From assembly GCA_021798195.1 (NCBI GenBank), contig JAJZYH010000006.1:1-64000 (forward strand): a stretch of 64,000 nt of DNA, written 5' to 3'. Position 1 is the first letter of the stretch; the number at the start of each line of letters is the position of its first letter. Under the pieces are notes generated by a model that was given only the letters and a program-made list of their open reading frames with translations, had not been told where the DNA came from and ran no database searches. Positions 15,399 through 59,226 of this stretch are shown piece after piece. Source of the DNA: Thermoplasmata archaeon. GTDB taxonomy: Archaea; Thermoplasmatota; Thermoplasmata; Lutacidiplasmatales; UBA184. The translations under genes and the position numbers were made by a program.

Positions 15399-15483
15399 TG
15401 CTGGCGCCAGGATTCGAACCTGGGGACTCCTGCGAGAACGGATCTTGAGTCCGTCGCCGTTGGCCAGTCTTGGCTACGCCAGC
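15399..15483 (-). tRNA. tRNA-Leu(CAA), copy 1
   Basis: GCTGGCG...ACGGA CTCAAGA TCCGT...variable arm...CCAGG TTCGAAT CCTGG CGCCAGC A; class II fold, anticodon CAA. Confidence 0.93.
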
Positions 15484-17146: not shown

Positions 17147-17231
17147 TGCTGGCGCCAGGATTTGAACCTGGGGACTCCTGCGAGAACGGATCTTGAGTCC
17201 GTCGCCGTTGGCCAGTCTTGGCTACGCCAGC
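17147..17231 (-). tRNA. tRNA-Leu(CAA), copy 2
   Basis: Identical to 15399-15483 except T-loop TTCAAAT instead of TTCGAAT. Confidence 0.93.
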
Positions 17232-31025: not shown

Positions 31026-31145
31026 TGCGGGGGGCCGGATTCGAACCGGCGAACCCCTTCGGGACAAGGTCCTAAGCCTTGCCTCTCTGGCCCCGAGCCC
31101 GACGCTTCCGCGGTCCCGAGATTGGCCGAGCTTGAGTACCCCCGC
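31026..31145 (-). tRNA. tRNA-Leu(UAG) with putative noncanonical D-loop intron (31087-31121)
   Basis: GCGGGGG...CCCCCGC A acceptor; CAAGG CTTAGGA CCTTG anticodon arm; TCCCGAAGGGGTTC variable arm; GCCGG TTCGAAT CCGGC T-arm; 120 nt total, 85 nt after removing 35 nt. Confidence 0.85.
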
Positions 31146-31236: not shown

Positions 31237-31340
31237 TAGCCCCGGCAGGATTTCCGTGGGGGGAGGGAGGCCTCCCCACCGTTCGAACCTGCGCCGCAGG
31301 ATCCAGAGTCCCGCATCCTTGGCCACTAGACTACGGGGCT
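31237..31340 (-). tRNA. tRNA-Gln(CUG) with putative noncanonical T-loop intron (31251-31281)
   Basis: AGCCCCG...CGGGGCT A acceptor; GTCTAGTGGCCAAGGAT D-arm; CGGGA CTCTGGA TCCTG anticodon arm; GCAGG TTCGAA [31 nt] T CCTGC. Confidence 0.87.
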
Positions 31341-57021: not shown

Positions 57022-59226
57022 ATGATCCATCGCGACCCCGTCCCTGGCACCTACGCCCGTGCCATGGGGTTCCTCCGGCGATGTTTCGCCCGGACAAGAC
57101 CCTGGATGTACCTGGCTGCCCTCATGGTCCTCTATGCCGCGGGATCGTTCGCCCTGTCTGCCTTGCGCTGGCAGGAACTGGACGCCTCCACGTTCGACCT
57201 GGGACTGTACCAGCAGAGCCTGTGGTCCACGTCCCACGGCTTTCCGTTCTACGAATCCGCCGATTGGGAGATCGCGGGGTTTCCCACTCTCCTCGACGTT
57301 CACACGGTGTTCATCCTGTATCTTCTCGTCCCCCTCTACCAGTTGGCCCCGACCGCCTACCTCCTCTTTGCCGTCCAATCCGGGGCCGTCGCGGCGGGAG
57401 CCGTCCCCCTCTACCTCCTGGGCCGCGACCACATCCATGACCCGAGGGCGGGGCTCCTGGTGGGGGGCATGTACCTGGCCTGGGCCCCCCTATTGGCCGC
57501 CAACCTCTATGACTTCCATCCGGAAGCATTCCTCCCGGTGGAGCTCTTCACTCTCTTCTGGTTCTGGATGCGGGGCCGGTACGCCTTCGGGTCCATAGTG
57601 GCCGTGGTGAGTTTCCTCACCCTGGAGGTGGCCCCGGTTCTCGTCGCGGCGATGGCCATCTACTTTGTCACCGAGAAGTGGACTCCATTTGGGCGACTCC
57701 ATGCGACGCACAAGGGGCCAGAAGGTCCCGAGCATCCACTAGACTGGGAGATTTCCGTCCCCCGCAGGTTGCAACGCGCGTTGGGTTCACCCCGCGTGAC
57801 TGCATCTCTGGTGCTGTTGGCTTCCTCCATTGTCGCGTACTTTTTGCTTCGGGAGGCCCAAACCGAATGGCTGGCCCTTTGGCTCCATCAACCCCTTGCG
57901 CCATCACAGACCACGGGGACCCTGGCGGGAACCTCGTTAAGCTCCCTGGACCTGTCTCTGTCCGCCGCATCCGCGGTTTTCCCACAAAAGGTGGCGTACT
58001 GGCTGGTCCTGTACGCGCTCGTGGGTCTCATCCCCTGGCTCGCCCCACGAGGCTTCATCCTGGCGGTTCCGTGGTGGGCCTATTCCCTCCTGGCCCTGAA
58101 CCCAGCAGTCGTGACGGTAGGATACCAGTACTCCTTCATCGCCGCCATCCCGGTCTTCCTCGGATTCGTGCTGGGCCTCGAAGTCTTCCGAAGGTGGTAC
58201 CTGGAGCCCTCTCCTCCGGGGAAGGTCGAAACCCATCCGAAGCTCGCATGGCGGGGGCCGGGATCCCGCAGGATCCTCCAGTCTGCCCTCCTGGGGCTCA
58301 TCCTCCTGAACCTGGCGATGAGCCCGTTGGACCCTCTCGCTCAGGGATCAGGACCCCAGGGGTACGCCGTTTCCTACGTCCCGCCGCCAGGTTTCTCCGA
58401 GGTCCTCCAACTCTCCCGGTTGGTTCCCGACGAGGCGCGTGTCCTGGCCACCCCCCGCCTGTTCCCACTGGTGGCGAACGACCTCCACGCATACTCCCTG
58501 CTACCGCCGGGGGCATCCCCCGCGGGAGGTTTCCCCTTCTTCCTCCCCTTCAACATAACGAATCCCCCCTCGTGGGTCTTCGTCTCGCAGCAAGAACTGG
58601 GCACCGTTCCCAGTTGGCTCGGCGGATTGCTCTACAACCGTTCCGTGTACGGCGTCCGGGGGGTGGTATGGTCCAGTGCCCTGGGGACCGTGATGCTCTT
58701 CGAGCGTTCCTGGACCGGACCCTACCTGAGCCTGGGTCCGCCTCCGGGAGTCCCCCAGGTCTTCTGGGGGAGCGGGCTCTCCCTGGGCCCGGCAGGACGC
58801 CTCGCCGCAAGCCCCGCTGGCCCCTACCCGGAAACCATCTTCAGCATCGACGGGGAAACGGGGAACGTCTGGTTCGGGCCTTACACTTCCCTGGCGCCGG
58901 GGAACTACACCGTCGAGGTCGATCTCATCGTGGGACTCGTGGATCCAGCTCTCCTTCCTCCCGCCTCCGATGTCGTGTTCCAGATCCAGGCGGGCGCCTT
59001 CGGCCAACCCACCTGGTACTACCAAAACTTCCTCCTTTCCCAGTTCAATTCGAGCGCCGAATCCCGGGTCACCTTCCGCATCGACGTGCGTGCTCCCTCC
59101 ACGAATGTACAGGTCGTCGGATATTCTCTGAGCCCCCTTGTGGAAGAACAGCTCCTCGACGTGAGCATTTCCCCGGTCGCCCCCACACAGGCGGCGCCCC
59201 TTCCACCGGGTGGTACTGGACGCTGA
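57022..59226 (+). CDS. DUF2079-like multi-TM membrane protein
   Basis: ELDASTFDLGLYQQSLWSTSHGFPFYES...DVHTVFILYLLVPLYQLAPTAYLLFAVQS. Confidence 0.8.
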   Translation: MIHRDPVPGTYARAMGFLRRCFARTRPWMYLAALMVLYAAGSFALSALRWQELDASTFDLGLYQQSLWSTSHGFPFYESADWEIAGFPTLLDVHTVFILYLLVPLYQLAPTAYLLFAVQSGAVAAGAVPLYLLGRDHIHDPRAGLLVGGMYLAWAPLLAANLYDFHPEAFLPVELFTLFWFWMRGRYAFGSIVAVVSFLTLEVAPVLVAAMAIYFVTEKWTPFGRLHATHKGPEGPEHPLDWEISVPRRLQRALGSPRVTASLVLLASSIVAYFLLREAQTEWLALWLHQPLAPSQTTGTLAGTSLSSLDLSLSAASAVFPQKVAYWLVLYALVGLIPWLAPRGFILAVPWWAYSLLALNPAVVTVGYQYSFIAAIPVFLGFVLGLEVFRRWYLEPSPPGKVETHPKLAWRGPGSRRILQSALLGLILLNLAMSPLDPLAQGSGPQGYAVSYVPPPGFSEVLQLSRLVPDEARVLATPRLFPLVANDLHAYSLLPPGASPAGGFPFFLPFNITNPPSWVFVSQQELGTVPSWLGGLLYNRSVYGVRGVVWSSALGTVMLFERSWTGPYLSLGPPPGVPQVFWGSGLSLGPAGRLAASPAGPYPETIFSIDGETGNVWFGPYTSLAPGNYTVEVDLIVGLVDPALLPPASDVVFQIQAGAFGQPTWYYQNFLLSQFNSSAESRVTFRIDVRAPSTNVQVVGYSLSPLVEEQLLDVSISPVAPTQAAPLPPGGTGR

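Follow-up and report, generated by a model that had tools for sequence, protein, structure and literature searches.

An intron in the T-loop of a tRNA-Gln(CUG) gene

The 64,000-nucleotide (nt) stretch of contig JAJZYH010000006.1 from a Thermoplasmata archaeon (hereafter, the window) carries, on the minus strand at positions 31237–31340, a tRNA-Gln(CUG) gene in which the T-loop is interrupted by a 31-nt intron at tRNA position 59/60. The T-stem halves GCAGG and CCTGC are separated by 38 nt instead of 7. From sequence reading, the gene consists of a 59-nt 5′ exon (tRNA positions 1–59; 31282..31340, minus strand), the intron (31251..31281, minus strand; CGGTGGGGAGGCCTCCCTCCCCCCACGGAAA), which was also evident from the fold, and a 14-nt 3′ exon (positions 60–73; 31237..31250, minus strand). 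Removal of the 31 nt yields a standard 73-nt tRNA-Gln(CUG) with all stems, the loop TTCGAAT, and the acceptor AGCCCCG/CGGGGCT followed by A73, in agreement with the intron position, borders and restored tRNA proposed in a preliminary description of this DNA. The two halves lie in normal order, and the gene is accordingly not a permuted tRNA, in which the 3′ half stands upstream of the 5′ half. Exon identity was 94% on average among ten tRNA-Gln(CUG) sequences compared.

Standard searches captured the gene incompletely. ARAGORN reported a tRNA-Gln(CTG) that ends early at the intron (31266–31340), and the Rfam tRNA model left it below the cut-off in the window, with 15.8 bits genome-wide. With a geometric scanner that relies on the acceptor stem, T-stem, U8, anticodon arm and TTCRA and leaves the length of the T-loop free, the gene scored 19.6; none of 40 shuffled 64-kb windows reached 18. 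An Rfam H/ACA match overlapping the gene was dismissed as chance (18.4 bits against a cut-off of 35). No phage record similar to the gene was found.

When the 104-nt pre-tRNA was folded without constraints, the minimum-free-energy structure included a bulge-helix-bulge (BHB), the T-stem, the pairing UUCG/CGGA and the intron hairpin. In this fold, and in line with the family statistics described below, the 5′ strand of the central helix is T54-T55-C56-G57 (31284..31287, minus strand), followed by the bulge A58 A59 ^ C, and its 3′ strand is the CGGA within the intron (31253..31256, minus strand), followed by the bulge A A ^ U60. The BHB-type pairing anticipated in the preliminary description is thus present, as is its 3-nt bulge AA^U at the 3′ site. 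The 5′ site, for which a 5-nt bulge had been drawn, is instead a 3x1 loop with AAC opposite a single A.

T-loop introns in the host genome

The window corresponds to contig C38 of a metagenome-assembled genome (MAG; 1.75 Mb, 73 contigs, 95.7% complete, GC 0.67). Its glutamate-tRNA ligase GltX is 62% identical to the homologue of Thermoplasmata archaeon YS4.bin60, which places the genome in Thermoplasmata; the YS4.bin60 genome (G031) and G002, which belongs to the family of the window's genome, yielded identical places. An archaeal 16S model also matched in the genome. The long open reading frames first picked for taxonomy were without a family match and probably represent spurious frames on the antisense strand.

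By Rfam, pattern and own-model searches, in which each place was read, we found 40 tRNA genes in the MAG. Ten of them are interrupted by an intron exactly at 59/60: Gln(CUG), Ala(GGC), Ser(GCU), Ser(GGA), Arg(UCU), Arg(UCG), Asp(GUC), Lys(UUU), Gly(UCC) and His(GUG). D-loop introns were present in three tRNAs (Leu(UAG), which lies in the window, Lys(UUU) and, apparently, Arg(GCG)), and anticodon-loop introns in another three cases (Met(CAU), Tyr(GUA) and Leu(UAA)). Two covariance models were used: R1, built from five of the genome's own tRNA genes, and R2, a second model used for the phylum sample. R2 gave no additional T-loop-intron tRNAs in the MAG. Of 34 matches to an exact T-arm pattern, 15 lay outside the tRNAs already known; their sequences were inspected, and no tRNA was present in any of them.

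Seven expected isoacceptors, Asn, Trp, Val(CAC, TAC), Pro(TGG), Thr(GGT) and Arg(CCG), were not found in the MAG; they may lie in assembly gaps or carry introns missed by the searches. Together with the 73 contigs of the assembly, these gaps would fit an explanation in which the interrupted genes are pseudogenes or assembly errors and intact copies lie elsewhere. A second intact tRNA-Gln(CUG), which such an explanation calls for, was not found in the MAG by Rfam or by R1 and R2, and the recurrence described next bears on it further.

T-loop introns recur across Thermoplasmatota

R1 matched in all 31 genomes searched. The survey of close relatives suggested in the preliminary description was positive throughout: T-loop-intron tRNAs were present in 19/19 searched genomes of the same family, at about ten per genome. 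We fetched the loci and parsed them independently of the model, by which 114 places were reduced to 108 distinct cases, the window copy included. These span Arg, Ala, Asp, Gln, Glu, Lys, Asn, Ser, Gly, His and Leu tRNAs as well as tRNAs with the anticodon CAU.

In a sample of the class, R1 matched (E ≤ 1e-11) in 90 of 150 genomes and 36 of 63 genera, and all 40 matched loci examined (20 read as returned and 20 fetched) had a T-loop intron. Outside the family, the introns at class level were mostly in Lys(UUU), Lys(CUU), Arg(UCU) and CAU tRNAs. In the phylum sample searched with R2, T-loop introns were also found in families outside the class (28/28 loci read). In families of the phylum other than the window's own, tRNA-Lys(UUU) often has a T-loop intron and frequently a D-loop intron as well. 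Several of the phylum genomes with T-loop introns are single contigs with 99% completeness. These sequence comparisons indicate that T-loop introns are widespread in Thermoplasmatota, with tRNA-Lys and tRNA-Arg(UCU) affected in many families, and that they have multiplied in the window's own family. Because this architecture recurs in dozens of independent genomes, some of them single contigs, an assembly error is excluded; as the exons are also conserved and the stems paired, an origin of these genes as pseudogenes or assembly errors with intact copies elsewhere is extremely improbable.

Splice-site architecture of the 59/60 introns

In the 108 distinct introns, positions 54–57 pair with the four intron bases ahead of the last two. 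The partner of C56 is G and that of T55 is A or G in every case, and T54 faces A or G in 106; in shuffled introns, all three pairings at 54–56 occurred in 10%. G57 faces C in 50 of 52 introns, and A57 faces G in 45 of 56, T (a pairing base) in 8 and C in 1. The 4-nt central helix is flanked by the bulges AA^N and NN^Y, 3 nt each. The intron helix was paired in 84% at the exact register of the 3-nt bulges and in ~50% one base off, with a background of ~45%. In a 24-sequence alignment, changes on both sides were seen in 5/5 intron-helix pairs and 4/5 T-stem pairs, and the covariation score fell from 0.78 to 0.18 upon a one-base slide of the structure; the sequences are related, and these counts are not independent events. 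Within the central helix, covariation is visible only at position 57, because T54–C56 are nearly invariant in tRNAs. As far as sequence can define it, the geometry of the T-loop-intron family is the canonical 3-4-3 BHB of 37/38 introns, with both bulges kept. In the window's genome, tRNA-Arg(UCU) has a perfect 3-4-3 motif. The term relaxed BHB, used in the preliminary description, denotes forms in which one bulge is lost or replaced by an internal loop (hBH, HBh′, BHL); the window copy, with its 3x1 loop, appears slightly relaxed, and the family as a whole appears canonical.

Exons and introns differ sharply in conservation. Among the 108 distinct cases, exon identity within an isotype is 87–99%, while intron identity is mostly 56–63% (82% for one close trio), compared with 51% for shuffled sequences. 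Introns of different tRNAs of the window's own genome have a mean identity of 0.51, against 0.50 when shuffled. Spread of intron sequences by copying within the genome is thus unsupported, the identity across tRNAs being at the shuffled level.

These data also bear on whether the inserts might be retained, giving mature tRNAs with an enlarged T-arm hairpin. Such a hairpin is stable in the fold. Retention, however, would lock T54-T55-C56, which are required for the contact between D-loop and T-loop, in a helix. These three bases are invariant in the exons while the inserts drift to near randomness, and two exact 3-nt bulges with 4-nt spacing are kept, as needed for splicing. We therefore regard retention of the insert as very unlikely.

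The splicing endonuclease is a fused α′2 enzyme

The MAG has one endonuclease gene (C44:5555–6331, minus strand), in which two PF01974 units lie in a single open frame. Exactly two PF01974 matches in one frame were found in all 31 genomes, corresponding to a single fused α′2 gene in each. The MAG endonuclease aligns with the A. fulgidus α′2 enzyme over most of its length (E 3e-31), and the catalytic Tyr, His and Lys are invariant (Y314, H329 and K360 in alignment A3). At the site of the A. pernix Crenarchaea-specific loop (CSL, with Lys44), 22/22 aligned enzymes have ~6 residues. The CSL and ASL are loops adjacent to the active site that are credited with broad specificity (PMC6379350, PMC12397907). 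Judged from these alignments, the enzyme is of the fused α′2 type and lacks CSL and ASL loops. The Thermoproteales-type setting with a broad-specificity endonuclease, which had been suspected in the preliminary description, was thus not borne out: the genome belongs to Thermoplasmata and has one fused α′2 gene without specificity loops. An RtcB ligase is also encoded in the genome. In the non-catalytic repeat of the endonuclease, a class-wide conserved VLPRGG...RYW segment (residues ~133–151 of the first sequence in A3) is longer than in A. fulgidus.

D-loop introns and other tRNA genes

A neighboring tRNA-Leu(UAG) gene was found by tRNA search and reading at 31026..31145 on the minus strand; it begins 195 nt downstream of where the tRNA-Gln gene begins. 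Ortholog comparison defined a 35-nt D-loop intron in this gene (31087..31121, minus strand), overlooked in the preliminary description, with the central helix GGCC/GGCC and the bulges AA^T and AG^A. The syntenic tRNA-Leu(UAG) ortholog beside tRNA-Gln(CUG) in a genome of the same family has no D-loop intron, and the length of its D-arm is that predicted for the spliced tRNA-Leu(UAG) of the window. Similarly, tRNA-Glu(CUC) has a 59/60 intron in several relatives and none in the window's genome. These two comparisons of sequence indicate that introns are gained and lost over time. In another relative, tRNA-Leu(UAG) has D-loop and T-loop introns together.

The D-loop intron of tRNA-Lys has a 4-bp central helix in 15/15 sequences; compensatory changes include TCGG/CCGA, TAGG/CCTA and CAGG/TCTG. 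In the MAG, tRNA-Arg(GCG) (locus L037; G000:C18, ~58834–58930, minus strand) has an apparent D-loop intron.

Two further observations concern tRNA genes of the genome. Two near-identical tRNA-Leu(CAA) genes (15399–15483 and 17147–17231, minus strand) stand 1.7 kb apart within a 134-bp repeat of 94% identity, possibly a remnant of integration or duplication. A gene read as tRNA-Thr(CGU) (locus L020, 1501–1573; G000:C52:102228–102300) has a body that is almost that of a tRNA-Lys(CUU) (L004) ~5.5 kb away; it has C at position 1 and the T-loop TTCGAAA, and looks like an anticodon-switched or decaying copy.

Discussion

The locus at 31237–31340 very probably encodes a functional tRNA-Gln(CUG) whose archaeal BHB intron at 59/60 is spliced by the α′2 endonuclease by virtue of a geometry like that at 37/38. 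We infer, rather than observe, that the gene is transcribed, cut and ligated, and that geometric mimicry is the reason. In the pre-tRNA, bases 54–57 would pair with four bases near the 3′ end of the intron and lengthen the T-stem. The resulting bulge-helix-bulge, with AA^N and NN^Y on either side of a 4-nt helix, would be closed by the intron hairpin. The α′2 endonuclease would cut both bulges, as with 37/38 introns, and RtcB would ligate position 59 to 60, leaving a standard TTCGAAT T-loop. The T-loop and the anticodon loop alike comprise 7 nt on a 5-bp stem, and in both the cut would follow the sixth base, so that the geometry at 59/60 would equal that at 37/38; with the first four loop bases paired to the intron, the canonical motif would therefore be rebuilt. 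Such shared geometry would let an enzyme of narrow specificity accept T-loop introns, and would account for the single dominant site.

Several points weigh against this reading. The fourth central pair is non-standard in 48 of the 56 cases with A57 (45 A.G), the 5′ site of the window copy is not a pure bulge, and the 3′ site of tRNA-Lys D-loop introns is an internal loop, ill-suited to a strictly canonical enzyme; some extra tolerance may be needed to accommodate them. In addition, R1 and R2 contain the central helix, so the set of matches leans towards it. Nine of the ten cases in the window's genome were located without R1 or R2, and all ten pair at 54–56.

The same irregularities could mean that broad specificity was acquired by the α′2 enzyme in some other way, for example through the VLPRGG...RYW segment, in which event mimicry would be unneeded. 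The presence of D-loop introns, the 3′ internal loops of those in tRNA-Lys, the A57.G apposition in many T-loop introns, and an N-terminal segment that is conserved in the family and longer than in A. fulgidus all favor this possibility, which is a variant of splicing by mimicry and not exclusive of it. Most T-loop introns are nevertheless canonical in geometry, which a broad enzyme would not enforce, and the location of the segment, in the non-catalytic repeat, is unlike that of CSL and ASL, which adjoin the active site (PMC6379350, PMC12397907). We consider a broadened enzyme conceivable, if rather unlikely.

Introns at 59/60 have been listed for archaea, with Crenarchaeota (chiefly Thermoproteales) and Nanoarchaeota as rich sources (PMC4090602). 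The noncanonical introns of Thermoproteales resemble those described here in their 59/60 position, BHB-type motif and occurrence at several per genome. They differ in that Thermoproteales have an (αβ)2 enzyme with the Crenarchaea-specific loop and Thermoplasmatota an α′2 enzyme without CSL or ASL, and in that one site dominates here, with canonical 3-4-3 geometry. Thermoproteales introns have also been transposed and are similar across isodecoders (PMC4090602), whereas the sequences found here are not common to the isotypes of a genome. The 37/38 introns of Euryarchaeota, cut by an α4 or α′2 enzyme, share enzyme type and BHB geometry with the present introns, which lie instead in the T-loop; in α4 and α′2 Euryarchaeota genomes, one intron per gene has been reported, at the canonical position only (PMC4090602). 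Permuted tRNAs of Thermofilum pendens and C. merolae are joined at 59/60 (PMC3218864), the same junction, but in the present gene the 5′ part comes first and an ordinary intron forms the insert.

Outside Crenarchaeota, introns are also abundant at noncanonical positions in the Asgard groups Atabeyarchaeia and Freyarchaeia, in which 92–95% of tRNA genes have introns and over half have multiple introns (PMC11291895). Korarchaeum cryptofilum, reported as the only α2 archaeon with noncanonical introns (PMC4033280), is likewise a case of an α2-type enzyme alongside such introns. The gains of tRNAscan-SE 2.0 in noncanonical introns were mainly in Crenarchaeota and Thaumarchaeota (PMC8450103). In the open literature, the extent of our search (subscription papers, preprints and GtRNAdb lay beyond its scope), we found no paper describing T-loop introns in Thermoplasmata. 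Introns at 59/60 are thus already known; their abundance together with a narrow-type enzyme appears to be undescribed in the literature searched.

The 3′ part of tRNA genes is the usual attachment site of integrating elements. A speculative and doubtful extension of our findings is that the T-loop is a second standard intron site in Thermoplasmatota, kept by selection and not drift, where the intron would disrupt the integration target and position 57 (G-C or A.G) would serve as a splice code.

Noncanonical introns have been held to accompany broad-specificity enzymes (PMC4090602, PMC4033280, PMC6379350), and the α′2 type has been described as strict (PMC4090602, PMC6379350, PMC12397907). Thermoplasmatota would be a large α′2 group with many introns off the canonical position but in canonical geometry, which suggests that the endonuclease reads shape, not position. 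Geometry like that at 37/38 would explain how a strict-type enzyme can coexist with many noncanonical positions. For Methanomassiliicoccus luminyensis, a relative, no detectable tRNA-Lys was reported (PMC4153887); T-loop and D-loop introns may account for tRNAs absent from annotations, such as this one.
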